In this document: positions 11,558 through 34,737 of the stretch, in pieces
How positions within the stretch are numbered: the first letter of the stretch is position 1
Layout of the letters: every line of letters starts with the position of its first letter
DNA from: Minisyncoccota bacterium
GTDB taxonomy: Bacteria > Patescibacteriota > Minisyncoccia > Phycocordibacterales > JAGLOS01
Assembly (NCBI GenBank): GCA_023137615.1
Contig: JAGLOS010000005.1
Location: forward strand, 1-34,737
Direction of reading: 5' to 3'
Length of the DNA: 34,737 nt
Made by a program: the position numbers and the translations under genes
The notes under the pieces: generated by a model
The model's input: only the letters and a program-made list of their open reading frames with translations
What the model was told of the DNA's origin: nothing
Database searches by the model: none

Positions 11558-11949
11558 ACTCTAAATTATTATTAAACTTTATAATCAACTCGTGGATACC
11601 CAATAAATGATATACACTCTCATAAAATACCATACTCTGTACAGAAGCGCCAGTGGAACAATATCCACACCTTATTTTTCTCCATTCTTTTGAGGTTTGT
11701 GCGGCAGATCTTTCGGAGTCATATCATTTAGCAATGTTCTGAGTACTTTTGTCTGGATCTCTCGACATATACTACATTGTACACAATGTTCAAACATGGC
11801 AGTCGTCTCTGACAGTCACATTTTCTGTGTCTTCTCTTCTCCTATTAAATTTTTATGTTCTTTTACAATATATAGCGTATTACGACATGTCTTTTGGTCA
11901 ACCGTGCCACTTATCTACACGATACAAGCATGATATAATTGCTCATAAC

Positions 11950-12924
11950 ATGGAAGAACAAAAAAAGAGACCCCTTACATACTTTCTCCCCTTTATCGCA
12001 CTTTGGACCATACCGGTTTTGGTCATTGTTCTCGGATATTTCATATATGACGGATACCAGTATAAAAAAGAACAAGCTGTCCACTATATCGCACTTGAAG
12101 AAAAATTTGAAGCTCAATTGCTTTTGCAGTCACAGCTTCTTGCAAGCTCCACCAAAGCATTGAGCGATTCGATCGGTATAATTGAAGAAAACCTTTCTCT
12201 TACCAAAAGCGAAAGCTTGGCACTTTCTAATGCGCTGGAAGATGCGCTTAACGCGGAAAAACAAAAACTCGCCTCTCTTCAGAAAGAAACTGCAAATTTA
12301 GGCGGCGCTGTCGGGGACTTGGAAAAGCTTAGTGAAATAGACTCGGAGCTTCTTATGAAATATTCAAAGGTGTTTTTCCTCAATGAACACTATGTTCCAT
12401 CGAGTCTCTCAGAAATACTTAATAAATATCTCTATAGCGAACGAGAAACAAAATATTTTCACACCGGTGCGTTACCCCATCTTACCCAAATGATCGATGA
12501 CGCGCTCACACAAGGCAAAGTACTCTATGTAAGGTCAGCTTATCGCTCATTCAACGAACAAGATAATCTAAAAAGTCATTACACTGTTACATATGGAGAA
12601 AACACTGCTAACACTTTCTCAGCAGACCAAGGATATTCTGAACACCAGCTCGGTACCGCTGTTGATCTGATAACAACAGGATTTGAAGGAATACTTACAG
12701 AAGATTTTGATACTACCGATGAATATGTTTGGTTAAAAAACAATGCTCATAATTATGGATTTACGCTATCTTATCCCAAAACCAACGGATATTATGTATA
12801 TGAACCATGGCACTGGCGTTTTGTTGGTGTCGCTCTGGCAACAAAACTACATAATGAGAATATAAATTTCTACGACATGGACCAACGAATCATAGACGAA
12901 TATCTGATATCTATTTTTGACTAA
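11950..12924 (+). CDS. D-alanyl-D-alanine carboxypeptidase, VanY/M15 family
   Basis: 'YVRSAYRSFNEQ', 'SEHQLGTAVDL', 'EPWHWRFVG'; TM and coiled-coil N-terminus; ATG at 11950 preferred over the ORF start at 11749. Confidence 0.88.
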   Translation: MEEQKKRPLTYFLPFIALWTIPVLVIVLGYFIYDGYQYKKEQAVHYIALEEKFEAQLLLQSQLLASSTKALSDSIGIIEENLSLTKSESLALSNALEDALNAEKQKLASLQKETANLGGAVGDLEKLSEIDSELLMKYSKVFFLNEHYVPSSLSEILNKYLYSERETKYFHTGALPHLTQMIDDALTQGKVLYVRSAYRSFNEQDNLKSHYTVTYGENTANTFSADQGYSEHQLGTAVDLITTGFEGILTEDFDTTDEYVWLKNNAHNYGFTLSYPKTNGYYVYEPWHWRFVGVALATKLHNENINFYDMDQRIIDEYLISIFD

Positions 12925-20482: not shown

Positions 20483-23400
20483 TTAGAGCTTTTCTCTGTA
20501 GAGGTCTTTTGACTTTTCTTCTTCTTGAGTTGTCGGATCCTTTATCTCTTGTGTAACAGGGTCTCGTTTTGATGCAACATCGGTCTGTAGATACAAAGAA
20601 GCTGCAAGCGGATCAACATTTTGTTTTTTATCTTTTACAATATCCTCACTCCCTGAATTCTTCTTAGGCGATTGAGACCCTTTATCACCCGTCATGTCTT
20701 GAGATGTATGCTCATCAAACCCATATTTTGGAATATCCACACCTGGACTTACGCTAGATACTTGTGGTGAGTCTCCCGCCTCTGCAAACGGGTCAGTATG
20801 AACCGGCATGCGGATCTTAGGCGATGCTATCAGCTGTGTTTGTTGAGAAGAAAGTATGGTCTGCTTCTGTTGTTGCACTGTAGAAATATCTTGCTTTGGA
20901 ATGATTGCATTTTTAGAGCCGGTCTGTGTTACTGCCGACGATACAGGTGTTGTCGGTTGTTGTGTTTGCTTCGGCTCTACCATTGCAGGACGTCTCGATA
21001 CGGTCGATACGGAAGTGCCTGTCTTTTGCACGCTATGTCGTGTATTTATTTTTGGCGATGCTGTAGTATATGCATATTTTTTTGCAACAATCTCGTCCAC
21101 CTCTTTTCTGTCACGTCCATATGTTTGTCGAGATAACTCTTTTATCTTTTGCCCAATCTCCGGAGAACCCACCATCGGCGCTTGCGTTTCAATATTGAAT
21201 GGTTTTGACGGAAAACCGTTTACAAGCATTTTCACATATGCATTTCTATTTGGGATCTTCATAATATCTGTCGCAGAAAATGTTGGCAAAAATTGGCTCT
21301 CGACAAATTCCGCATCTTCCGCACCAATACGAAATGCCGCCATTGATCCCACATTCCCAAACACCGAATCGCGTATCTCTTCATCGAGTTGTGCAATAAA
21401 TTGATGAGCGATCGTAAGACCGAGACGATATTTTCGTGCCTCTGAAAGAATGGCGGAGATCGAATCGGTTGTTACATTCTGAAATTCGTCGATATAAAGA
21501 TAGAATTCCGCAGGAGCGCTCTCTTTTGCATCAACCCGGGAAAGTGCCGACATGAATATCTTTCCAACCAGAATAAGACCAATAAGATGAGAATTTATCT
21601 CACCCAAACGACCTTTTGCAAGATTGACCAAGAGAACCTTCCGGTTGTCCATAATATCTCTAAAATTGAACGAGGAATGTTCCTGAGCAACGATCGGACG
21701 CATTATGTCATTCGAGAGAAACACATCAAATTTATTCGTAATATACGGCACCATATTTGCCAGAGATGCTTCTCCCCCAGCTTTTGCGGCAATCTCCCGC
21801 CAAAACTGTACTACGATCGGATTTGTACATCGAGATAACTTCAATTCTCGAAATTTTTGATCAGCAAGCACGCGCGAAACATCCAAAAGAGTATTACCGC
21901 TTTCCGGATCTTCTATCACAAGTGACGTGGCATTTCGGAAATATTGTTCAAACATGGGTCCGCCGGCCACTTTCATATCAAAGAGTTTATTAAAGATCGA
22001 AAGCATCTCATTGATGACAAATGACTTTTGTTCCGGATGCGTCACATCATATTCCAACATGTTAAGACCCATCGGACGCTCAACATCACCCGGATCAAAG
22101 TAAATAACATCTTTCATCCTATGCTCTGGGATCGTATTTAGAATATCCTCAATATCAGTACCGTGTGGATCAATATAACATACACCTTCACCATTATTTA
22201 TATCCTGCATGATCATGTTCTTCAAGAGCGTGGTTTTTCCGGTACCTGTCTGACCAATACAATAGAAATGACGCAATCTGTCTTCCGGTGCAATATAAAC
22301 ATTTTTCTCCGCACCGCGATACGTATTTGTTCCCAGAAAGACCCCTCGCGCCTCCATCTCGACAGGAGCGACAGCTGAAACTATTTTAGACTGTTTCAAT
22401 TGAGAAGACGAGGTATCCATCACCGGAAAATGAAACATTGTGGTCATCTCTTTAAGATTGAGCCGCATTGCATATTTCTCCATATACAACCGGAACGAAA
22501 AATCATGGAGGAGTTTTTCCAACCCGTCACCACTTACTCTTCGAAAGCTAATACTATTTGCCGGCTCATTTGCAAATTGATGAAAAGCGGATTCAAGATC
22601 AGTAAGTATCTCATCTGCACGCTCCGCAGTCGCCGCAGATCCGATGATCCGAATATTTGCATTTACAATAGGTGATGATATTTTTTCTGTGATCGCATCT
22701 ACTTCCTCTTGGTCTACAGTGGTAAGTTCTTTTTCTTTTCTCTCTTTTCTTTGCTCTTTGCTCTCTGCACCCAATACCAATTCTTTCGCGACACTAGCAA
22801 CCTCGCGCGCGACCCTTACCGCAGACCCCTCAAGCGCTCGATTAAGCGACGTCCCCTTTTTCACATCTTTAAGTACTTCCTGATATTTTCTATTTATTTC
22901 ATCTCGGACAGGAGCAATAATGAGCTGAATAGCAGCGCCCTCTCCTTCTTTTTTGAGTTTTGAAAATACCCCGAGAAGCACATTTACCGGATCCTGCTCA
23001 AATTCCTCAAACGTCTTAAGCGGCAAGGCCGCCGACTTGGTTAATTTAGCAACAGAACCAACGGAAAAACCTTCTTTGTTGAATGGATTATAGTCATTTT
23101 TGCGTTGCGTTATCTGTGCATCGGGAAAAGTCGATGCAAGCTGTTTTTCAAAAAGAGATATTTTTGTATTTGGCACGGCAACATAAAAGACCACATCTTC
23201 TTTTGTGTTTGAGAGTGCGATCTCAAGAGTAAAATACCCCTGCAAACGATGCCTCTCTCGGATCGAGAGCATGCCGCTATAGAACTGTTCCATTGTGGTA
23301 ACCAACTGCGAAAACCCTTGTTCCACATCAACAATATCAGGTAGTGTTACTTCAAAAAGAGTCATATGAAGCGCTTTAAAAAGTGGTGTTCCTTCCTTGA

Positions 23401-23812
23401 GCCCGCGGACATCCATGCCATCTGCCAAATACTGTACCAAAAGCCGATGAAAATCATCTTCGGTGTAAGGATCGTCCATCTTTTTGATCACATCAAGGGT
23501 GTTCTTAACCCCTTTCTCAACCAATATTTCAAGAAGTTCATTGGTCTTGCCTTCTTGTTGCCGCATCAATTTTTTTGAAGCGTTGTCTATTTCCTTTTTA
23601 TCCATTTGCAGTTGCGGATCAAGCACATGGTCAGTGGGTGTTTCCTTATATGCAGATAATTCCTGTGATGCGATCCGCTCTTTTTCCTGTTGAGAAGGTT
23701 TCGTCACACCAAGCCGCTCTTGCAGCTGCGCGATACGCTCTTGCAACATATCAAGTTCTTCGCTCGGTGTTTGCGCCCGCGCAGATGTTTCAATACTATT
23801 ATTGAATTGCAT
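20483..23812 (-). CDS. TraG/TraD/VirB4-like AAA ATPase (CPR-type conjugative-transfer family protein)
   Basis: Walker A 'FYCIGQTGTGKTTLLKNMIMQD', 'CYIDPHGTDIEDIL', Walker B 'FYLYIDEFQNVTTDSISAILSEARKYRLGLTIAHQFIAQL'; Gln/Ser/Thr-rich C-terminus. Confidence 0.88.
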   Translation of the reverse strand: MQFNNSIETSARAQTPSEELDMLQERIAQLQERLGVTKPSQQEKERIASQELSAYKETPTDHVLDPQLQMDKKEIDNASKKLMRQQEGKTNELLEILVEKGVKNTLDVIKKMDDPYTEDDFHRLLVQYLADGMDVRGLKEGTPLFKALHMTLFEVTLPDIVDVEQGFSQLVTTMEQFYSGMLSIRERHRLQGYFTLEIALSNTKEDVVFYVAVPNTKISLFEKQLASTFPDAQITQRKNDYNPFNKEGFSVGSVAKLTKSAALPLKTFEEFEQDPVNVLLGVFSKLKKEGEGAAIQLIIAPVRDEINRKYQEVLKDVKKGTSLNRALEGSAVRVAREVASVAKELVLGAESKEQRKERKEKELTTVDQEEVDAITEKISSPIVNANIRIIGSAATAERADEILTDLESAFHQFANEPANSISFRRVSGDGLEKLLHDFSFRLYMEKYAMRLNLKEMTTMFHFPVMDTSSSQLKQSKIVSAVAPVEMEARGVFLGTNTYRGAEKNVYIAPEDRLRHFYCIGQTGTGKTTLLKNMIMQDINNGEGVCYIDPHGTDIEDILNTIPEHRMKDVIYFDPGDVERPMGLNMLEYDVTHPEQKSFVINEMLSIFNKLFDMKVAGGPMFEQYFRNATSLVIEDPESGNTLLDVSRVLADQKFRELKLSRCTNPIVVQFWREIAAKAGGEASLANMVPYITNKFDVFLSNDIMRPIVAQEHSSFNFRDIMDNRKVLLVNLAKGRLGEINSHLIGLILVGKIFMSALSRVDAKESAPAEFYLYIDEFQNVTTDSISAILSEARKYRLGLTIAHQFIAQLDEEIRDSVFGNVGSMAAFRIGAEDAEFVESQFLPTFSATDIMKIPNRNAYVKMLVNGFPSKPFNIETQAPMVGSPEIGQKIKELSRQTYGRDRKEVDEIVAKKYAYTTASPKINTRHSVQKTGTSVSTVSRRPAMVEPKQTQQPTTPVSSAVTQTGSKNAIIPKQDISTVQQQKQTILSSQQTQLIASPKIRMPVHTDPFAEAGDSPQVSSVSPGVDIPKYGFDEHTSQDMTGDKGSQSPKKNSGSEDIVKDKKQNVDPLAASLYLQTDVASKRDPVTQEIKDPTTQEEEKSKDLYREKL

Positions 23813-23943: not shown

Positions 23944-26166
23944 TTATCCTTTGTTTACATAAAGATTCTTCAGTACAACACCCTCTCTCAATTTTGTTGC
24001 TTTTGTTTGATACTTCTTTGAATATGAGCCATCCGGCTGTTTTACTTCAACGGTGAAATAGTATTCCCCGGGCGGAGTTAGAAGATAGAACTGTCCAAGA
24101 TCATCCGCTACCACCGTCTTTACAAGAGCATCGTTGCCCGCCAAATATGCTTTTACCACCGCGAACGGCACGACCTCTTTTGCGATCGACCTCATAACTT
24201 GTGTAATAGGATGTGACACTTTCCAAAATGTCTGGAAAATAAGAATACCAGCGTAAATACCAAATATCACAAAATTAAGAGTTGTCGGCTGATACCATAG
24301 AATATAGGTCGACAAAACAAATCCCGCAAAGAAAATTATATTTGAAATAAATGAGACAACATGCTTTTTTCTTCGGGAACGCAGACGGAAAAGCCCTTGT
24401 TCTTTCTTGGCAAATTCATTCCAATCAAAATCGACGGGGTCAAGTGGAATATTGTAGCGTATTAACCCTTTATCAGAATCAGTTACTTCTATCGGCTCGC
24501 CAAAGTATAAATTATCATAAAACTCATCCATCTTTCTGCCACGGAGACGCTCAGAAGGAAAAACATAATGAGTTTTGTTTGCCTCAATAACATATTGCCC
24601 GGGCGCGACGAGAAAACCATATCGCCCATCAAGATCAGTAATAGCAACGCCTTTTTGTTCTCCCGCGGATGAAATAACCACATATGCCGGATCAAGCGGT
24701 CGTTTAGTGACTGAATCATAAACCACCCCCCACGGCTCACCTCTTCGTCGTCTAAAGAAACTCGAAACAAATGAAATAAATCGCAATAGAAGGAACCATA
24801 GATCAGTAAATCCAGCTGCATTTGAAGCAAGTACCAAAACCTGTCCCAACCCGACACCAAATCCGGCATATGATACCACAGAAACGATCTCCGGAGTCAC
24901 GACTTCCGGTAGAGGTATTTCCGGCTTTTCATCCACTCTGTCTTTATTTTCTATCATGATCTCTCCTACTCCGATCGGATCGAACGGTGTCAACACGAAC
25001 ACTTCACGTAGAGAAACCTCATTTCCTGCACGATCGTATGCTTTTACAACAAACACATGTTTTCCGGCGCGCATCTTTGAGACATGAAACACATGCGAAC
25101 CATCGTCTCTCCATATTACTGGTTCTTCTCCATCAATAGCGATCTCGAAGTAGTCAATACCCGAAGGTATATCCTGCACATCAAAGACAAAGTCGGTCGA
25201 GAAAGTTCCCAACTTGCCATCTGTCACAATTCTTTTCATTTTGATCCTAGACGGAGCCTGTGTGTCGATCTGCACCCTATAATGGGACACCACACCCCAA
25301 CCCGCAGAGTTCTTCAACTGCACATGTATGTACCGTATTCCATCATCAATGCTTATTTCCTTTTCATCTATCACCGAATATTCTTTGTCCGGCTCTCCCA
25401 GAGGATCTTGTGACGCCGACACTCGAACAGCTTCAATATCAGTCGTCACCGACCACTTCATCATAACGATCTTATTCCTATACCACGCGTTTTGGTCGGA
25501 ATGCGTTGGTGATAACAATACCGGAGCGCTAGGGACAACTCCTCCGGAGCCGGAAGAAGTATCACCATCTCCACTTTGGTCATCGCCATCTTGACCACCA
25601 TCGTCTTGGTCATCGTCACCCTGATCGTCATCGTCTTGGTTATCGTCGGGTGGGACATATTCTTCTTCATATATTGTTATTGTACTTCCCACAGTGCCTC
25701 CGAGAATACTTGTCCCAAGACCATCATTTGCCAATATCTCTGCTGATGAAAAATTCAATTGTGCAACACCCGCAGCAGCCGCTTTGAGATTAATCGTTAG
25801 GATCTTACCGTTGCTGCCGGTAAACCCCGGATTTGGAACAATGCCCTCAAATGTTACATAACTATTTGAAAATGTCGGATTTTTTATCCAAAAAGGAATG
25901 ATAGCGCCTGTTTGAGAAATAGAAATCACACGAACGAGATTATTTGGAAATACGAATACTCCGGACACCGCATTCATTGCTTGATCCTCACTTGACACAT
26001 ATACTCGAGCACTAAAAATATCACCAACTGTCTGTGTACTTGAAGAGGGAGAAATAAAAAGCGTAGCCGCCAACACAGGAAGCGAAACCAAAAATGCCAC
26101 ACTAACGCTCAAAAGCAAAAAGTATTTTTTGTATTTATATGCCGTTATGTTTTTGAATGACCACAT
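23944..26166 (-). CDS. Cohesin-domain membrane protein with Asp-rich linker, Ig-like domain, TMs and two carboxypeptidase-regulatory-like domains
   Basis: 'LFISPSSSTQTVGDIFSARVYVSSEDQAMNAVSGVFVFPNNLVRVISIS...GKILTINLKAAAAGVAQLNFSSAEILANDGLG'; 'WGVVYDSVTKRPLDPAYVVI..GVAITDLDGRYGFLVAPGQYVIEANKTHY'. Confidence 0.8.
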   Translation of the reverse strand: MWSFKNITAYKYKKYFLLLSVSVAFLVSLPVLAATLFISPSSSTQTVGDIFSARVYVSSEDQAMNAVSGVFVFPNNLVRVISISQTGAIIPFWIKNPTFSNSYVTFEGIVPNPGFTGSNGKILTINLKAAAAGVAQLNFSSAEILANDGLGTSILGGTVGSTITIYEEEYVPPDDNQDDDDQGDDDQDDGGQDGDDQSGDGDTSSGSGGVVPSAPVLLSPTHSDQNAWYRNKIVMMKWSVTTDIEAVRVSASQDPLGEPDKEYSVIDEKEISIDDGIRYIHVQLKNSAGWGVVSHYRVQIDTQAPSRIKMKRIVTDGKLGTFSTDFVFDVQDIPSGIDYFEIAIDGEEPVIWRDDGSHVFHVSKMRAGKHVFVVKAYDRAGNEVSLREVFVLTPFDPIGVGEIMIENKDRVDEKPEIPLPEVVTPEIVSVVSYAGFGVGLGQVLVLASNAAGFTDLWFLLLRFISFVSSFFRRRRGEPWGVVYDSVTKRPLDPAYVVISSAGEQKGVAITDLDGRYGFLVAPGQYVIEANKTHYVFPSERLRGRKMDEFYDNLYFGEPIEVTDSDKGLIRYNIPLDPVDFDWNEFAKKEQGLFRLRSRRKKHVVSFISNIIFFAGFVLSTYILWYQPTTLNFVIFGIYAGILIFQTFWKVSHPITQVMRSIAKEVVPFAVVKAYLAGNDALVKTVVADDLGQFYLLTPPGEYYFTVEVKQPDGSYSKKYQTKATKLREGVVLKNLYVNKG

Positions 26167-27053
26167 CCCCGTTTTTTATACATTCGTACACTTATGATCA
26201 AAAGTATACTAAATACTATACTCAATAGGATACCACGAGTTAGTATTGTATCATACCATGCCAATCCAAGATGTGCCGGAACAATCTCTATGCGAACATT
26301 ACCCGCGTTATCAAATGCAACTACAGTGACATCTTGATCAAATCTTTGGTTCTTCAATAAATACGGGCTCTCTGCAACGATGTAATCTGTGCCCCTTTCT
26401 TTTACTTCATAGTGATGAACCCCGGAATTTTTATCCTGCGTATCAAAGACAATATAGTACTTTCCAGTAAGAAAATTATCCGGTTTTCGAATCACGATCG
26501 GTGTAAACGACTCCGGTGGTACTTTATCACCCCAATCAACCTCTTTCTGTCCAATCCCTTCTCCCTCGGTAACTTCAATATTCATATCCCTGACAATAAG
26601 TGACGCTTCAGTACCAATACCATCGTGTAACAAAACTATGGAATCTCTGTTGACCTGTACCCAGCCATCACCGATCTTTGTTGCCTCAAACACTATGCTT
26701 AAAATTTTTCCGGGTCTATTTCCTTTCCAATGAGAACTTATTTCTCCACTATATCCTCCGGGGACGATACCTGCATAAACAATGCTATCTCCTTTTTGTA
26801 TCGGCTTTTGCATCCACAGTTGAATAAGAGAGTTTCCATAACGAATCTGTCGTACTATCAAATTTTGTGAAAATGATACGCTTCCTTCAAGCGCATTAAC
26901 AACATCTTCCTCTGCGTCAAGCATAAGCGAAACTTCAATGATATCCCCCACCCTCATCGAAGAGTGGTCCGCATCCAAATACAATTCAGCCGCGCCAACA
27001 AAAAATGGTGCGGCAAATAAAAATATTATTATACTTGTAATTTTTGGTATCAT
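26145..27053 (-). CDS. Cohesin-domain protein with signal peptide and C-terminal TM
   Basis: 'LYLDADHSSMRVGDIIEVSLMLDAEEDVVNALEGSVSFSQNLIV..GKILSIVFEATKIGDGWVQVNRDSIVLLHDGIGTEA'; overlaps the next gene by 22 bp. Confidence 0.8.
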   Translation of the reverse strand: MIPKITSIIIFLFAAPFFVGAAELYLDADHSSMRVGDIIEVSLMLDAEEDVVNALEGSVSFSQNLIVRQIRYGNSLIQLWMQKPIQKGDSIVYAGIVPGGYSGEISSHWKGNRPGKILSIVFEATKIGDGWVQVNRDSIVLLHDGIGTEASLIVRDMNIEVTEGEGIGQKEVDWGDKVPPESFTPIVIRKPDNFLTGKYYIVFDTQDKNSGVHHYEVKERGTDYIVAESPYLLKNQRFDQDVTVVAFDNAGNVRIEIVPAHLGLAWYDTILTRGILLSIVFSILLIISVRMYKKRGCGHSKT

Positions 27054-27085
27054 GTTTTATCTTTTTGTCTTAACTTACAGACCCC

Positions 27086-27114
27086 GGATAAGATTTGCTT
27101 AACAAATTTTATCC
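27086..27114. promoter_or_regulatory. Intercistronic hairpin in the surface gene cluster
   Basis: GGATAAGATTTG-CTTAA-CAAATTTTATCC, 12 bp with one GU, no T-run. Confidence 0.5.
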
Positions 27115-27147
27115 CTACAGGCTCACAGCTACAAGCTATCAACTATT

Positions 27148-28080
27148 TTATCCCGTCCAATAATACGCCATTAAACTAAAGTCCACCAGATCAACAACCC
27201 CATCTCCATTCAGACGCTCCCGCTCAACTGTGATAAAAGCACTATTGAGTGTTCTGTCGTACCAATATGCCGCAATTGAAAAATCAACAATATTTACGAT
27301 ACCATCATAATTTACATCTCCGATAAGAAAGGGCTCTTCTTCAACAATCGTTTCTTCACCCACAACAAACGTATATACATCGCTATATGGACTTTCGATC
27401 CCAACACCTATCATTTTTACTCTCAAAAAATGCTCACCAAGATCAAGATCTGTAGTATTTAGAGAATATTCATAAAGTCCATTTGTTACCGTATCTATCG
27501 TCGTTGAAGAAGTACCATTGATCTCTATTACAATGTCCCTATCCTCTTTGGTCTGCCCATAGAAAACAATACTGTCTCCCTGTTTTACTTCGAGCAGATC
27601 CGTTGTAACGGTCGGCGGTATCACAATACCACTTATTGTCGTCCGTGCATGACCAATAACATCAACCGAATACGTTACCATACTCGACAGGGTACCATAG
27701 TCATCTTGTGCATATAAAGAAAAAGAATATGTACCCCCGGATAGCCCGCCAATCACTGTCGAAAAATTTGACCCAGCGACAGCATTTATTCCACTTAGAT
27801 ATTGTGAATCCTTAAGTATTGTTATCGGACTAAACGGATATCCGAAACCAGAAAACACCACCTCTGTCGGAGGGAGAATAATAGGTTCACCTCCACCGCC
27901 CGGTGGCGGATCGTCTTCCGGATACAACACATTTGCAGTTATGGTCAGTGTTGTCGTGCCACTTATCGTTGCGGCAAAAGCCACCCCTTGCCCTGAAAGA
28001 TTCATTAAAATTATCAAGAAAAAAACTGCTGTAAAAAAATACGTTTTAAATTGACACATAAAAGCTGAAAATATTACCAA
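27148..28080 (-). CDS. Secreted protein with C-terminal type-I-like dockerin
   Basis: Signal peptide; Ig-like modules; C-terminal repeat 'GDVNYDGIVNIVDFSIAAYW' / 'ERLNGDGVVDLVDFSLMAYYWTG'. Confidence 0.85.
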   Translation of the reverse strand: MVIFSAFMCQFKTYFFTAVFFLIILMNLSGQGVAFAATISGTTTLTITANVLYPEDDPPPGGGGEPIILPPTEVVFSGFGYPFSPITILKDSQYLSGINAVAGSNFSTVIGGLSGGTYSFSLYAQDDYGTLSSMVTYSVDVIGHARTTISGIVIPPTVTTDLLEVKQGDSIVFYGQTKEDRDIVIEINGTSSTTIDTVTNGLYEYSLNTTDLDLGEHFLRVKMIGVGIESPYSDVYTFVVGEETIVEEEPFLIGDVNYDGIVNIVDFSIAAYWYDRTLNSAFITVERERLNGDGVVDLVDFSLMAYYWTG

Positions 28081-28092
28081 CTCCCAACTTCT

Positions 28093-29172
28093 TTACTCTG
28101 TGTTCTTTAACTGTACGTCGACATTGGCTTTTTGAGCTTGTCGGATGATCATTTGGTTATACCCCTTCAAAAGACGCAGAACCAACAATCCCCCCAACAC
28201 AACAAGAGTAAGAAGTTGCCATGGTACAACAAAAAAGGTAAAGCCGGCCGCACTCATAAGCTCTTCCCCTGCTCCATAAGTAAGTTCCAATTCTGTACGA
28301 TACATTCCAAAGGCAAAATGTTTTGCCTGGTAGATCGCCGTAGAAAAGAATCCTTTTGGTGGCTCAAGACGTCCATCCGGATCCTCATCATTGTCATCCA
28401 CACCATTCCAGTGTATTGAGTATTTTCGTACGCTTTGAGGAAGAATATTTCCTTTTTGAGGATTCGCATCCAACACACTCGTAGTGATACCAAAAGTATT
28501 TTTTATCGTAATAATTCCTTCCGGTTTTATACGATCACCTCCGCTGTTTTGAAAACGATATACAAAATCAATCGGCAGAGTAGTAAAGAATTTTTTTGTT
28601 GTGAGGGCTCCTCCCGCACCCGCTAGTACTCCCGCCCCCGTATCAAACTTTTGTCCAACCGTTTCGAATGCAATAATACCGCCCCCTTCTTCAATATCAC
28701 CATTGACTCGCAAGAGAATGATCACACCGATCTTTGCCCCGATAGAAACTTGTTTTTCAGAATCCTCTGCGACATTTGGATTCGTTGTGCCCCAAAAAAT
28801 AGCGGCGAAATGTCCCCCCGGATCAGCGCCGTGTGGGATCGTAATAGAATAATCAAGTTTGATCGTCTCGCCCGGCTTTATGGTGATCTGTTTCGCAGAA
28901 TCAATCCATGTTGCTAAACCTTCTTGCGCTTCAACGAAATTTGGTGTACCCGTCTCCCCCTGCGCTTCAAAATTCTCAAATGAGGAATAAAAAGTTTTTT
29001 CGGTGTCTTGTTCGTTTACAATAATATATGTTCCTTTTAGCATTTGTCCGGGATTACCATTTATCTCGATCCGAGCGGGAGCAATCGTCAAAGCTGACGC
29101 GACCAAAAAAGGAGCAAAAAACAGCGCTCCGCTCAACAACGCCGTTATAATCTTTTTTCTGTACATAGACAT
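28093..29172 (-). CDS. DUF916/WxLIP-like membrane protein
   Basis: Signal peptide; 'LTIAPARIEINGNPGQMLKGTYIIVNEQDTEKTFYSSFENF...ITIKPGETIKLDYSITIPHGADPGGHFAAIFWGT'; C-terminal TM. ORF is open to 29211; start chosen at MSMYRKK. Confidence 0.65.
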   Translation of the reverse strand: MSMYRKKIITALLSGALFFAPFLVASALTIAPARIEINGNPGQMLKGTYIIVNEQDTEKTFYSSFENFEAQGETGTPNFVEAQEGLATWIDSAKQITIKPGETIKLDYSITIPHGADPGGHFAAIFWGTTNPNVAEDSEKQVSIGAKIGVIILLRVNGDIEEGGGIIAFETVGQKFDTGAGVLAGAGGALTTKKFFTTLPIDFVYRFQNSGGDRIKPEGIITIKNTFGITTSVLDANPQKGNILPQSVRKYSIHWNGVDDNDEDPDGRLEPPKGFFSTAIYQAKHFAFGMYRTELELTYGAGEELMSAAGFTFFVVPWQLLTLVVLGGLLVLRLLKGYNQMIIRQAQKANVDVQLKNTE

Positions 29173-29281
29173 AATAATTTTTATCATCAGGATATCCAAT
29201 AGACTGCCCATTTGACTGTCTAAACACTATATTCAAGCATTACTGTGATAATACTCGAATATAGCACTTTATGCAACCAAA

Positions 29282-30352
29282 TTAGTAATTTGCCGTTGCA
29301 ACATAAGTAAGAGCCGCTGTATATGATCCTGCCTCAGTATCTGACGCAATGTTTGCGGCATAATACACAGTATAAGTAGTAGTATCTGACGCGCCACTTG
29401 CGATTGAAACAGTACTTGCCGAACTGACACCATCATATCCATAATGGTAAGCATGACTATATGTAGGATCAACAGTGATACCGGAACCGCCCGAATCACT
29501 CACGCGAATACCGAATTGTTCGCCTCCTGTTGACGTAGCGGCAGCAGTATCTCCAATCACTGTAATATCATATGCTCCAACATTAAGAGTATTTCCCTCA
29601 ACAGTTAAGGTGTATCCTCCTGTGGCATTTGTTCCGACACCGATAGTGTGTGCGGATGTTTGGTCGTTATTACCACCACCTGTTGTCGCATATCGTGTGG
29701 CGGAAACACTCAAATTACCAAAGGCAACATCTGTCTCTGAAATACTGAATGTGATCGACTGTGGCACCTCGGCAGTAAGCTGGACTTGGTCATCTGTTAA
29801 TACCTTAATGGTGGTTGTACCTGTGTCTGCAAACGTACCGGCAACAGCTATTGTATAATCACCTGCTCCAGGGTTGGTTATCTGATTGTTAGACGCACCG
29901 CCTGTCGCATTTTCACCTATCTGGATCTGCATACATGTTCCGGCTGTCACTCCCCACGATGAGGCATCTGTCGGTGCGGTAAGGGTCATTATCTGACTGG
30001 AGGTAGACACTCCCCATGTCCCTGCTGCCGCACTTGCAGCAACCGTCACATCCGCGAACGTTGGAGACGTACAATCTGTGGTACTGGTAGCGATATCAAT
30101 ATCACCAAATGCAATGACCCCCAGATCAAAAGTCTGAAAAGTAATAGTGATGGTCTCGGAGTTGTCCTGAATACCTGTTGTCGCCAAAAACTGGATCGTA
30201 TGGTCTGCAAGTGTACTTGCTTTAATAGTTGACAGAGAATCCGAAATAGGTGTTATAGATGCCGCAATGGAAATTGACGGTATGAGAATAAATATACTCG
30301 TCAATATCACACTAACGATCTTTTTTGTTTTTATTAAAGCCACTTTTTTCAT
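29282..30352 (-). CDS. Secreted Thr/Ser-rich surface protein with C-terminal WxL-like domain
   Basis: Signal peptide; C-terminal 'GGYTLTVEGNTL..EQFGIRVSDSGGSG..GSYTAALTYVATANY*' homologous to the C-terminus of the RCC1 protein. Confidence 0.8.
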   Translation of the reverse strand: MKKVALIKTKKIVSVILTSIFILIPSISIAASITPISDSLSTIKASTLADHTIQFLATTGIQDNSETITITFQTFDLGVIAFGDIDIATSTTDCTSPTFADVTVAASAAAGTWGVSTSSQIMTLTAPTDASSWGVTAGTCMQIQIGENATGGASNNQITNPGAGDYTIAVAGTFADTGTTTIKVLTDDQVQLTAEVPQSITFSISETDVAFGNLSVSATRYATTGGGNNDQTSAHTIGVGTNATGGYTLTVEGNTLNVGAYDITVIGDTAAATSTGGEQFGIRVSDSGGSGITVDPTYSHAYHYGYDGVSSASTVSIASGASDTTTYTVYYAANIASDTEAGSYTAALTYVATANY

Positions 30353-30530
30353 AATAATATTGTTCTAAATATTAATAACCGATAATAATACCGCATCGCA
30401 TTCTCGCGTCAGAAGAAATTACAATATTACTTATTATTATACGATACATCCAAAATATCTGCGCAAGAAGTTATCCACATTTGTTAGTTTGTAGTTGGTA
30501 GCAAAATTTGTTTTGCAAATCTTCTAATGA

Positions 30531-30743
30531 ATCACCTCGCAGCAGAACCGCGAGGTATCAGTAACAATTCCACACTCTCAAACAAATACAATTTATATCA
30601 TTGTCGTCATTGCGAGCCGCAGGCGAAGCAATCCATGGTATTGTAGTTATACTCTGGATTGCTTCGCCTGCGGCTCGCAATGACGATAGTGAGACTTTGT
30701 TGTGCATCACCCAGCAGCAAAGCTGCGGGGAATTCTTTTTGAT
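30531..30743. repeat. Dispersed intergenic repeat, copy B (inverted relative to copy A)
   Basis: Matches 3434-3584 at both ends; carries the 30604-30686 palindrome internally. Confidence 0.55.
30604..30686. repeat. Long palindromic element: 32-bp perfect stem, 19-nt loop
   Basis: TCGTCATTGCGAGCCGCAGGCGAAGCAATCCA (30604-30635) and its exact reverse complement (30655-30686). Confidence 0.95.
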
Positions 30744-30780
30744 TAAAAACTACAAACTACAAACTAACCATACAACTAAC

Positions 30781-33700
30781 TCAAAAATTCGCCGTAATAA
30801 CATAAGTAATAGTCGCGGTGTAATCCCCGTCATCGGTATTGGCTATTGCATTAGTGATATAGTAGAGAGAGTAAGTCGTGTCTTCAGAAGTACCTGAAGT
30901 GGAAGCGATCTCGGAAGAGACTGAAGCTGTTGCTCCGTAAGCATAACTGTCCGGTCCGTTGTATGGTGATGAAACAGAGCCCGAACCTCCGCTTGAGGTA
31001 ATGCGAAGTCCGAACTGTTCAACATCTACTGACGATGACGCCCAAGTACCACCTATGGCAGAGATGGTGTCTACTCCTGAAGTAAGGGTGTCTCCTCTGA
31101 CCGTGATGGTGTATCCGCTGCTTGCTGTGGTAGATGCTGAGAGTGTGTGTGACACTACTTCATCCGGGTCTCCTTGTGCTGTCGATGATGCAAAGCGCGG
31201 AGTACCTGAGACAAGTGTTCCAAAGTAGCTTTGCGAGGTTGAGATGGAGAAAGAGAGAGAATCGCTTCCTCCAATTGTAAATGACTGAGTGGCAGACCAA
31301 TCCCCATAAGTATTTGTTCCACCTGGGTCTAACCCCCTCACTCGCCAGTAGTATGTACCACTTGCGAGTGCATCGCTTGGCTGCACATCATAGTCTGCTT
31401 TTTCTGCTGAAGTGAACGGGTCTGTGTCTGTACTAGACGCTGTGTTGGCGAAACCCGCGTCGGTGCCTGATAGTTTGTCGAGGAGAGATACACTTGTGAC
31501 CTCTATTTCAATCCTTCCAACATGAGTATTATTTCCACCTGAGTCTGGCTTAAATAGAGAAGTGTTTAAGTCATTTACTTTTTGCCATGTCCATCCACCG
31601 GAAGGAGCCGAGACAACGACATACTCAGACCATGCTGGGGTTGTTGTTGTATCGTGCGCAGACCAATTGACAAGAGTCTCGACGCCTGAAGAGATACCAA
31701 AACCAACACCATCCGTAGCCCCTGCTGTTTCTGTATAAGCATAAACTCTTGCTCGTACTAATGTAATTTCCAAACCAGTCGTTGGTGCATTTGTTCCATC
31801 AAAATTTAATCTATTATCACCAATATCTTCTAGCGTTGAAGTATAAGCAGTAGTAGCAGTATCGCCATCAGCAACATTAGCATCATCCGTCCAAACTTCT
31901 TGTTGATCATAAGGATTATCATCAGATGCATCAAAATAGTAAGTATCAACATCACTATTATCAAAAGTATCGACCGTATCAATCTGAATGTTATACCGGA
32001 CATCATCAGTATCGGGGTCTGTACCCGTAAACTCGAGAGTAGGTGTTGTGTCTGTACCAAAATCCTCCAAGTCTGCTGTATTTAATACCACTGTCGTCGT
32101 TGCGTTACCAAAATCCCAGTGGGTGTTACCTGTTCCGTCGAGCGACGTTCCGTCATTTGCCAATATCTCATTTCCTCCGCTTGCGTCAGAGTCTTGAGGG
32201 TTTGTGTTGAGTACTGACTGAGTGCCTGTGACAAAGAGTTTCCAAGCTGTTGATGCTATTGATGAGCGTAGTTGTACTCTTGTGTTTGTGGCACCGCCAT
32301 CGAGATAGAAGTTTACGAATGAGTATCCTTTGCTTTCTTGGAAGCGTATCTTTGTGCTTGCTGTTTGCGCTCTGAAGTTGGTGCTTGATGCAGCCGATGT
32401 GAATATGACTGATGGTGATGTTACAGGGTCGCTTCCTGAGGAGTTGGTGATCTTTAGTGTGTAGAAAGCGTTTGCTCCTGTCATTGCTCCTCCGAGTGTT
32501 TGTTGAGAGGTTCCGTCAAAGGTGGTGGTACCGGAGTTTGCTGTGAAAGTTCCTGAGTTTGTGTAGTTTCCTGCGATGGTGAGGTCGTTTGTGTCAGATG
32601 CTTGATATGTGGAACTTGTAGCAATGGTGAATACTCCTCCAACATCTACCGTAGCATCTGTTGTGTTTGCTGTGAGAGTTATTGCGTTGGTTCCGTCTCC
32701 GATGGTTATGTCGTTTGTTATTGCTATTGTACCTGTTGCAATGGTGTAAGTTGGGCTTCCCGATGTTGGCAGGAATGAAAGATTGTAGTATGTGGTTGTT
32801 GCGATGTTTGTTGTGCTTGACGCTGTGTACTTGAAGTGTGAAGTAGATGCTGTGAAAGTACCGTCTATGACAAATGGTGTTCCTGATCCTGTGAGGAACC
32901 AGTCCTTTGTGGCAGCATCGAGGATGTGATTTTCTTTGATAGTGAGATTGCGTGAGATAGTGGTTAAGCCGGTGCCTGCTGCTGTGGTAGTGCTTGTTGT
33001 GTGAGCATTTCCAAAAACCAAGTGAGTAAAACTCCATGGGTTGTCTCCTCCAAATGTTCCTGTGTCGTTTAGTGTGAAGAATGGTTTTGCAATATCGCTT
33101 GTGTCTTCGTTGGACATTCCGCGTAGGGTGTGGACGGGGGTGAGGCGATCTGTGGCGGTTTGGTTGTCGCCGAGGCGACCACTATATGCATCCCCCCAAC
33201 AATATGCGTTGCCGGAGTTGGAAATGGCGCAGGCATGAAGAGTTCCCGCACTAATGTTTTGCATGTTGATAAGATATGTACCGTCGGTGTCAGCTCCGGT
33301 TGCAGCTCCGTCGTGGACTTTTACGGGAGTGAGGCGGTCGGTGGTGGTTGAATTGTCGCCGAGGCGACCATGTTCAGATTCACCCCAACAATATGTACTT
33401 GATGCGTTGGAGACAGTGCAGGTGTACTTATATTCTGCACTTATGCTTTTCATATTGATCAGATATGTTCCGTCAGTGTCGGCGCCTGTTGCCGCGCCGT
33501 CGTGGACGCGGATGGGAGTGTGACGGTCTGTAGTGGTTGAATTGTCGCCGAGTTGACCGTATCCGACATCACCCCAACAATATGTACTTGATGCGTTGGA
33601 GATAGCGCAGGTGTGATATCTTCCCGCACTGATCTCTTTCATGTTGATGAGATACTCTCCATCGGTGTCGGCAGCAACTGCCGCGCCGTCGTGGACGCGG

Positions 33701-34737
33701 ATGGGAGTGAGGCGGTCGTCACCGTTTTGATCATCGCCGAGTTGACCACATGCGACATCACCCCAACAATATGTACTTGATGCGTTGGAGATAGCGCAGG
33801 TGTAATTATATCCTGCACTTATGCTTTTCATATTGATCAGATACTCTCCGTCGGTGTCGGCATCTTGTGTATTACCATCGGTGCCGTCGTGGACGCGGAT
33901 TGGGGTAAGACGGTCGTCGCCTGTTTGGTTGTCGCCGAGGCGACCATTATATGCATCCCCCCAACAATATACGTTGCCGGAGTTGGAAATGGCGCACGTA
34001 TGAGCTTCTCCCGCACTGATCTCTTTCATATTGATCAGATATGTACCATCGGTGTCGGCAGCAACTGCCGCGCCGTCGTGGACGCGGATGGGAGTGAGGC
34101 GGTCTGTAGTGGTTGAATTGTCGCCGAGTTGACCATACGAGTCACGCCCCCAACAGTATGTATTGCCGGAGTTAGAGAGAGCACAAACGTACCACTTTCC
34201 CGCAGTAATTTGCTTTATATTGATCAGATATGTACCGTCGGTATCTTCTGCAACCGCTGCGCCGTCGTGGACACGGATGGGAGTGAGGCGGTCGGTAGTA
34301 GCTTGGTTGTCGCCGAGTTGACCAGACGAATCGCTCCCCCAACAATACACATTGCCAATATTAGAAAGAACGCAGGAATTATTATCCCCATTGATAATTT
34401 GCTTTATATTCGTCAAATTCACTCCGTCAAACTCGCTTGAGACCGCCGCACCGTCTTCCACTCTCTGGGGAGTGGTCTGATCTCCGACGGTATCGCCGTT
34501 GCCTAATTGACCGTAATAATCATATCCCCAGCAATAAGAGTTTCCGGAGTTTGAGACGGCGCAGGTGTACATGTCGGAGTAATTACCTCCAGCACTGATG
34601 CTTTTGATGTTAATTAAGTTTATGCCGTCAGTGTCTTCTGCTGCTGTATCGTCTCCCTTTAAAACCCTGTCCGGGACTGTTTGGTCGGCTGTTGGTGCGC
34701 CGTTGCCTAATTCGCCGTCACCATCATCTCCCCAGCA
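30781..34737 (-). CDS. Giant secreted RCC1-repeat protein with FN3-like and C-terminal WxL-like domains; N-terminus beyond the right edge
   Basis: Seven or more copies of 'GQLGDNxTTDRLTPIRVHDGAAVAADTDGTYLINMKxISAGxxHTCAISNSGNxYCWG'; reading frame stays open from the ATG at 34572 to the window end (TGC TGG GGA GAT = CWGD). Confidence 0.9.
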   Translation of the reverse strand, partial: CWGDDGDGELGNGAPTADQTVPDRVLKGDDTAAEDTDGINLINIKSISAGGNYSDMYTCAVSNSGNSYCWGYDYYGQLGNGDTVGDQTTPQRVEDGAAVSSEFDGVNLTNIKQIINGDNNSCVLSNIGNVYCWGSDSSGQLGDNQATTDRLTPIRVHDGAAVAEDTDGTYLINIKQITAGKWYVCALSNSGNTYCWGRDSYGQLGDNSTTTDRLTPIRVHDGAAVAADTDGTYLINMKEISAGEAHTCAISNSGNVYCWGDAYNGRLGDNQTGDDRLTPIRVHDGTDGNTQDADTDGEYLINMKSISAGYNYTCAISNASSTYCWGDVACGQLGDDQNGDDRLTPIRVHDGAAVAADTDGEYLINMKEISAGRYHTCAISNASSTYCWGDVGYGQLGDNSTTTDRHTPIRVHDGAATGADTDGTYLINMKSISAEYKYTCTVSNASSTYCWGESEHGRLGDNSTTTDRLTPVKVHDGAATGADTDGTYLINMQNISAGTLHACAISNSGNAYCWGDAYSGRLGDNQTATDRLTPVHTLRGMSNEDTSDIAKPFFTLNDTGTFGGDNPWSFTHLVFGNAHTTSTTTAAGTGLTTISRNLTIKENHILDAATKDWFLTGSGTPFVIDGTFTASTSHFKYTASSTTNIATTTYYNLSFLPTSGSPTYTIATGTIAITNDITIGDGTNAITLTANTTDATVDVGGVFTIATSSTYQASDTNDLTIAGNYTNSGTFTANSGTTTFDGTSQQTLGGAMTGANAFYTLKITNSSGSDPVTSPSVIFTSAASSTNFRAQTASTKIRFQESKGYSFVNFYLDGGATNTRVQLRSSIASTAWKLFVTGTQSVLNTNPQDSDASGGNEILANDGTSLDGTGNTHWDFGNATTTVVLNTADLEDFGTDTTPTLEFTGTDPDTDDVRYNIQIDTVDTFDNSDVDTYYFDASDDNPYDQQEVWTDDANVADGDTATTAYTSTLEDIGDNRLNFDGTNAPTTGLEITLVRARVYAYTETAGATDGVGFGISSGVETLVNWSAHDTTTTPAWSEYVVVSAPSGGWTWQKVNDLNTSLFKPDSGGNNTHVGRIEIEVTSVSLLDKLSGTDAGFANTASSTDTDPFTSAEKADYDVQPSDALASGTYYWRVRGLDPGGTNTYGDWSATQSFTIGGSDSLSFSISTSQSYFGTLVSGTPRFASSTAQGDPDEVVSHTLSASTTASSGYTITVRGDTLTSGVDTISAIGGTWASSSVDVEQFGLRITSSGGSGSVSSPYNGPDSYAYGATASVSSEIASTSGTSEDTTYSLYYITNAIANTDDGDYTATITYVITANF
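33100..34737 (-). repeat. In-gene tandem repeat, 189-bp period, encoding 63-aa RCC1 blades
   Basis: 'CGTCGTGGAC' at 33309, 33498, 33687, 33885, 34074 and 34263: spacings 189, 189, 198, 189, 189. Confidence 0.9.

Follow-up and report, generated by a model that had tools for sequence, protein, structure and literature searches.

WxL-interacting proteins (WxLIPs) hold surface proteins on gut bacteria. In the literature searched, WxL/WxLIP gene clusters are described for Gram-positive bacteria, and one structure shows the E. faecium WxLIP bound to WxL (PDB 9i25). For CPR bacteria, NCBIfam holds a domain model, CPR_Pam_pilin_C (NF058581), which carries the label 'Pam pilus system pilin subunit'. 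No description of Pam pili was found in the literature searched, so the statements on pili made here rest on the name of the NCBI model and on the anatomy of the locus. In Southlakia, epibiotic growth is reported to require a set of genes that includes one for a dockerin protein (PMC10633639), and no literature was found on a module of dockerin and membrane-bound cohesin-like genes in CPR.

Here we describe a locus that may bear on how CPR bacteria grip their hosts. The window, that is, the whole stretch of DNA analysed, is one entire contig of 34737 bp from a 768-kb genome, and the named relatives at the locus are Parcubacteria/Paceibacterota-type MAGs. With moderate confidence, we read the block 23944-34737 as an operon that encodes a fibre on the cell surface, a 'Pam'-type pilus of CPR, and we combine this reading with a proposed mechanistic model that comprises a tip, a shaft, a base and a WxLIP-like partner.

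Organization of the locus

Six consecutive genes run on the minus strand from 34737 to 23944, encoding in turn an RCC1-propeller protein and proteins of 356, 359 or 372, 310, 302 and 740 aa (Table 1). Since the contig ends at 34737, the RCC1 gene is truncated at its 5' end and the N-terminus of the protein is missing from the sequence. The WxLIP-like ORF encodes 372 aa when started at 29211 and 359 aa when started at 29172, a plausible alternative that was used in an earlier, sequence-only reading of this DNA. The minus-strand gene order given there is borne out by the sequence, and the three last genes of the operon, further downstream, had been left out.

Outside the block, the region just downstream (20483-23812) encodes a protein of 1109 aa with Walker-type ATPase motifs, which resembles the type IV secretion ATPases of CPR and gave no match in a Pfam search at 1e-5. 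Similar genes lie near other such operons (L033, L076, L072). A VanY-type D-alanyl-D-alanine carboxypeptidase is encoded at 11749-12924 (Pfam E 2.6e-33).

Table 1. Features of the locus, in window coordinates.
Feature	Position	Strand	Basis
RCC1-propeller protein, at least 1318 aa, proposed tip adhesin	30781..34737	(-)	Pfam RCC1-like E 1e-98; CPR_Pam_pilin_C
Pam pilin C-terminal domain of RCC1 protein, ~159 aa	30784..31260	(-)	NCBIfam match; alignment with 356-aa protein
Proposed shaft pilin of 356 aa, with a beta domain at the N-terminus, a donor-type strand and a Pam pilin domain at the C-terminus	29282..30352	(-)	NCBIfam; alignments; AlphaFold2 pLDDT 74
Proposed donor strand DDQVQLTAEV, residues 187-196 of 356-aa protein	29765..29794	(-)	Conservation; low pLDDT; likeness to dockerin N-terminus
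WxLIP-like (DUF916-like) protein with a signal peptide, a pair of Ig-like domains and a TM helix at the C-terminus	28093..29211	(-)	Foldseek; Pfam via relatives
TM helix of WxLIP-like protein, ~residues 331-353	28153..28221	(-)	Helix in model; hydrophobic run
Dockerin protein, 310 aa, proposed pilus base subunit	27148..28080	(-)	Pfam Dockerin_1 near cut-off; L030 orthologue over cut-off
Cohesin-like protein, 302 aa, C-terminal TM helix, proposed dockerin receptor in membrane	26145..27053	(-)	Weak Pfam Cohesin match of L033 orthologue
Second cohesin-like protein, 740 aa, Ig/OmpL47-like, TM	23944..26166	(-)	Cohesin-like N-terminus, cohesin-TM family profile E 2.2e-28; weak OmpL47-type match

The shared C-terminal domain

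The RCC1 and 356-aa proteins share a C-terminal domain, as the sequence-only reading had noticed: the two copies are 43% identical over 160 aa (BLASTP E 1e-32), a similarity that cannot be put down to chance. All the motifs quoted in that reading are found in both proteins. They read YFGTL, SGYTITV, EQFGLRITSSGGSG and DGDYTATITYVITANF, followed by the stop codon, in the RCC1 protein, and AFGNL, GGYTLTV, EQFGIRVSDSGGSG and AGSYTAALTYVATANY, again followed by the stop, in the 356-aa protein. Both domains belong to CPR_Pam_pilin_C, with scores of 67.2 bits for the RCC1 protein and 67.9 bits (E 1e-18) for the 356-aa protein against a cut-off of 55. The domain is patchily distributed, occurring in 15 of 239 genomes of the class at E <= 1e-5 and in none of 14 control genomes. 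In minimal pilins of 191 aa, it makes up nearly the entire mature protein.

The PamT equivalog (NF058579) scores at best 24.5 bits in the window's own genome against a cut-off of 240, and this model may be too narrow for the class. The NCBIfam numbers adjacent to the Pam models, NF058580 and NF058582, designate unrelated families. Sequence searches of the PDB with the 356-aa protein, the WxLIP-like protein or their alignments gave no match, and Foldseek with the full pilin model (pTM 0.51, domain packing uncertain) gave only weak MSCRAMM and pilin matches.

Three proteins (L022:6798-7574, L085:2241-3008, L087:6737-7507) carry a recurrent N-terminal motif of the type STNYxLxSDSxNxGG...GExxTGxSxSxxYxLxAGYQ ahead of pilin-like C-domains, and the similarity of the first of them to the NCBI PamT model covers the N-terminal part of that model. 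At L037:6835-7938, in a record with the label Bacteroidetes, a pilin C-terminus is fused in frame with a polyprenyl synthetase (Pfam E 4.7e-68); this fusion is probably an artefact of assembly, binning or frame, and the C-terminus alone of that ORF was used.

Relationship to WxL domains

The sequence-only reading took the shared domain for a divergent WxL domain in which TYVxTAN replaces the second WxL motif. Assignment to the WxL family does not hold up in the family search, as Pfam WxL (PF13731) matches none of 11 pilins at E<=10 and nothing in the window's own genome. The two W-x-L motifs are absent: the corresponding positions read Y-T-I or Y-T-L and I/L-T-Y-V, and both tryptophans are missing. 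WxL is not among the top 50 folds retrieved by Foldseek for the full pilin model (pTM 0.51). What survives of the proposal is a possible distant kinship, weakly supported through CPR intermediates, in which Y-x-I/V corresponds to the first W-x-L and LTYVxT to the second.

These intermediates come from the class itself. In three of its genomes, Pfam WxL matches proteins whose genes directly precede a WxLIP gene scoring 54-59 bits, far over the cut-off (L082:6670-9179, L081:7335-9916, L080:6014-7960); the WxLIP protein of L082 additionally has LysM and LytR_C domains. When the iterated pilin profile is widened with intermediate neighbours, four WxL-like CPR proteins, encoded by two genomes that belong to a single family, rank above every decoy, with E-values of 1.4e-5, 8.5e-4, 3.1e-3 and 0.2 in a small database. 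The best alignment places the pilin SGYTVTV on SGWSLDV and AGSYTTTLTY on EGEYKTVLTF, so that Y-x-I/V falls on W-x-L. In a shuffle control, the four real scores were reached 0, 0, 2 and 8 times per 1000. A second group of WxL-like neighbours gives no such profile match, and a local hhalign comparison of the pilin and CPR WxL profiles returns a probability of 8-22%. These alignments weakly support a possible distant kinship of the Pam pilin and WxL domains, and the locus pairs a WxLIP-like partner with a Pam pilin whose roots are possibly WxL-like.

The WxLIP-like partner

The product of 28093-29211 is related to DUF916/WxLIP, as the sequence-only reading had proposed, and has a C-terminal TM helix: fold, a transitive Pfam match, architecture and conserved pairing all agree. 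The protein opens with a stretch that resembles a signal peptide; two Ig-like beta domains follow, and the AlphaFold2 model (pLDDT 72) shows residues 331-371 as a helix at the C-terminus. Searched with Foldseek against 350,542 PDB chains, this model (pLDDT 72) retrieves E. faecium WxLIP (9i1y, 9i25) at ranks 1-3, with E 1.1e-11 and a TM-score of 0.53 on the target; the chaperone-usher chaperones CsuC, CfaA and Caf1M, which also have two Ig domains, are among the next matches at 1e-8 to 1e-7. A Pfam scan of the window protein gives a weak fn3-like match only and no match to WxLIP_PGBD (formerly DUF916). Among nine aligned family members, six match WxLIP_PGBD below the cut-off (best E 3.8e-5), and a relative in L087, which is 33% identical to the window protein (BLASTP E 6e-61), passes it with 27.7 vs 27.3 bits. 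For the second domain, DUF3324/WxLIP_HBD, no Pfam match exceeds the cut-off in the 239 genomes, and one weak match is found at the expected position (G174, E 6.9e-4). With 359 or 372 aa and a C-terminal TM helix, the protein has the architecture of WxLIPs (320-380 aa, C-terminal TM). NCBIfam is without a model for this partner.

The pairing with pilins is conserved. A search for co-occurrence across related genomes, as suggested in the sequence-only reading, found the WxLIP-like family in 47 of the 239 genomes and the pilin domain in 15, and both in 13, against 2.9 expected (Fisher p 1e-8). In those 13, the WxLIP-like gene is mostly directly next to the pilin; in the two other pilin genomes, the pilin is close to a contig end. 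From the opposite direction, the gene immediately upstream matches the pilin profile (E <= 0.006) at 23 of 30 sampled WxLIP-like loci, many of these pilins being missed by the NCBI model. At strong Pam loci such as G171, two WxLIP-like genes stand directly downstream. The complete order tip, pilin, WxLIP-like, dockerin, cohesin-TM, cohesin-TM is kept in L030, L032, L035, L036 and L038, and partial or variant versions occur in L023, L026, L031, L033 and L074.

The dockerin and cohesin-like genes

The dockerin protein has a TTTLTITANV strand after its signal peptide, followed by Ig-like domains and a C-terminal dockerin, whose two Ca-loop repeats, DVNYDGIVNIVD and LNGDGVVDLVD, precede a YYWTG end. 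It scores 22.7 bits with Pfam Dockerin_1 against a cut-off of 22.9, and its L030 orthologue reaches 26.8. For the 302-aa protein, the L033 orthologue scores 22.9 bits with Pfam Cohesin against a cut-off of 24.1 (E 1e-4), and the window protein is below the cut-off. The 740-aa gene is conserved as the final gene of the operon.

Across the class, the dockerin family is found in 80 of 239 genomes and the cohesin-TM family in 79, with both in 72; the two genes usually lie side by side, and genes for very large secreted proteins often precede them. A dockerin gene lies <=3.5 kb from a WxLIP-like gene, on the same strand, in 23 genomes. The module also occurs in many genomes at loci without a close WxLIP-like relative. 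Conversely, pilin/WxLIP-like loci such as G276 and G171 are without an adjacent dockerin-cohesin set, which suggests that the dockerin-cohesin anchor is optional.

A model for fibre assembly

A strand of the form DDQVxxTATV is near-invariant ahead of the pilin C-domain, with V190, A194 and V196 standing out as near-invariant in the pilin alignment. In the isolated AlphaFold2 model of the 356-aa protein, residues 188-193 have pLDDT <50, meaning that the strand is disordered in the monomer, and in the minimal 191-aa pilins it forms the mature N-terminus. A strand profile, made from pilins picked by eye, matches all the scored pilins, the N-terminus of 8/13 dockerin proteins at p <= 0.05 (the other 5 lie above this value) and 0/10 tips; no donor-type strand was detected preceding the Pam domain of the RCC1 protein. 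The tip thus has the domain without the strand, the shaft protein has both, and the dockerin protein has the strand without the domain. From this distribution we infer a logic of donor-strand polymerisation with a dockerin base.

In this model, the RCC1 propeller would sit at the tip and bind the host, and the C-terminal Pam domain of the protein would link it to the fibre. Repeated copies of the 356-aa protein would make up the shaft, the C-terminal domain of each copy being completed by the DDQVxxTATV strand of the next. As the dockerin protein has the strand but no Pam domain, it would close the base of the fibre. Ca2+-dependent binding between dockerin and cohesin may fix this base to the two cohesin-like TM proteins and so to the membrane. 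In the case of the WxLIP-like protein, the model proposes a membrane-tethered partner that binds and stabilises the secreted pilin domains, as in the WxLIP-WxL pair, acting either as an assembly chaperone or as an anchor.

Other readings of the same genes have to be weighed. The locus could encode a divergent WxL/WxLIP wall complex, as the sequence-only reading supposed, in which peptidoglycan binding by the C-domain keeps the RCC1 adhesin, together with a small partner, on the wall and no polymer forms. The fold and pairing of the WxLIP-like protein suit such a complex, as does the combination of a large and a small protein with a single WxLIP, which matches the Firmicutes cluster (PMC10599100). 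CPR WxL proteins do adjoin WxLIP genes above the cut-off, and the iterated pilin profile reaches them (best E 1.4e-5, with 0 to 8 of 1000 shuffles equalling the real scores). However, PF13731 matches 0/11 pilins, the domain falls in a named pilin family, direct profile-profile probability is 8-22%, WxL stays outside the top 50 folds and both tryptophans are missing, which makes a wall complex rather unlikely. A little less doubtful, and still only tentative, is the idea that the WxLIP-like protein, instead of serving as a chaperone, anchors the fibre itself in the membrane, the dockerin protein being an unrelated adhesin that shares the operon. WxLIP-like genes do stand beside pilins without a neighbouring dockerin gene (G171, G276), dockerin-cohesin modules are found with other partners, and the Southlakia dockerin protein SEML1_0315 is discussed as a possible glycan binder (PMC10633639). 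Against this, dockerin proteins have the pilin-type strand and sometimes, as in L033 and L074, a pilin-type N-terminal domain, and they adjoin a WxLIP-like gene in 23 genomes. It is improbable that these are ordinary secreted beta-sandwich adhesins whose C-terminal likeness is a mere common sorting or secretion signal. Sorting domains too can be shared C-terminal domains with a conserved last strand, but the present domain is almost the whole mature protein in the 191-aa members and is paired with a WxLIP-like gene.

Returning to the fibre model, a broader view can be put forward speculatively. Pam pilins and WxL domains might share one ancestral family, each with a WxLIP-type partner, so that the WxL complex of Firmicutes and the CPR pilus would be two outcomes of one strand-complementation system; here, the dockerin base would be clamped by membrane cohesins, a non-covalent, calcium-dependent plug in place of a sortase or usher.

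Through this locus, a CPR pilin family that was named only recently is connected with a partner of known structure, the WxLIP. The unannotated neighbour thereby gains a role that can be tested, and the locus also suggests that dockerin and cohesins form the base. As a dockerin gene is reported to be essential in Southlakia (PMC10633639), the idea of an anchor is testable in a CPR organism with genetics. The WxLIP-like part hints at how such presumed host-gripping fibres are constructed and anchored in ultrasmall bacteria.

Comparison with known systems

With cellulosomal dockerin-cohesin pairs, the locus shares neighbouring genes for type I-like dockerin repeats and for cohesin-like domains; there are no cellulases here, however, the proposed receptor is a small TM protein, and the genes adjoin a proposed pilus locus. 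Chaperone-usher pili (CsuC, CfaA, Caf1M) also have a two-Ig partner by fold, and both would arrange tip, shaft and base by donor-strand logic. Their partner differs from the present one, which is tethered to the membrane by a C-terminal helix; no usher is seen, and the propeller tip and dockerin base are different. The WxL/WxLIP clusters of Firmicutes (PMC10599100) have a two-Ig and TM partner of like length and the same fold beside a long and a short partner protein, whereas the present locus is without W-x-L motifs, PF13731 or a Pfam-recognised DUF3324 (HBD) and has dockerin-cohesin genes in addition. In the CPR Pam pilus system, finally, the likeness lies in the C-domains, both over the NF058581 cut-off, in secreted subunits that end in TYVxTANF/Y, and in an occurrence confined to CPR among the genomes searched; the locus differs in that the PamT cut-off is not reached and that an RCC1 tip, a dockerin and a pair of cohesin-like proteins are present in addition.
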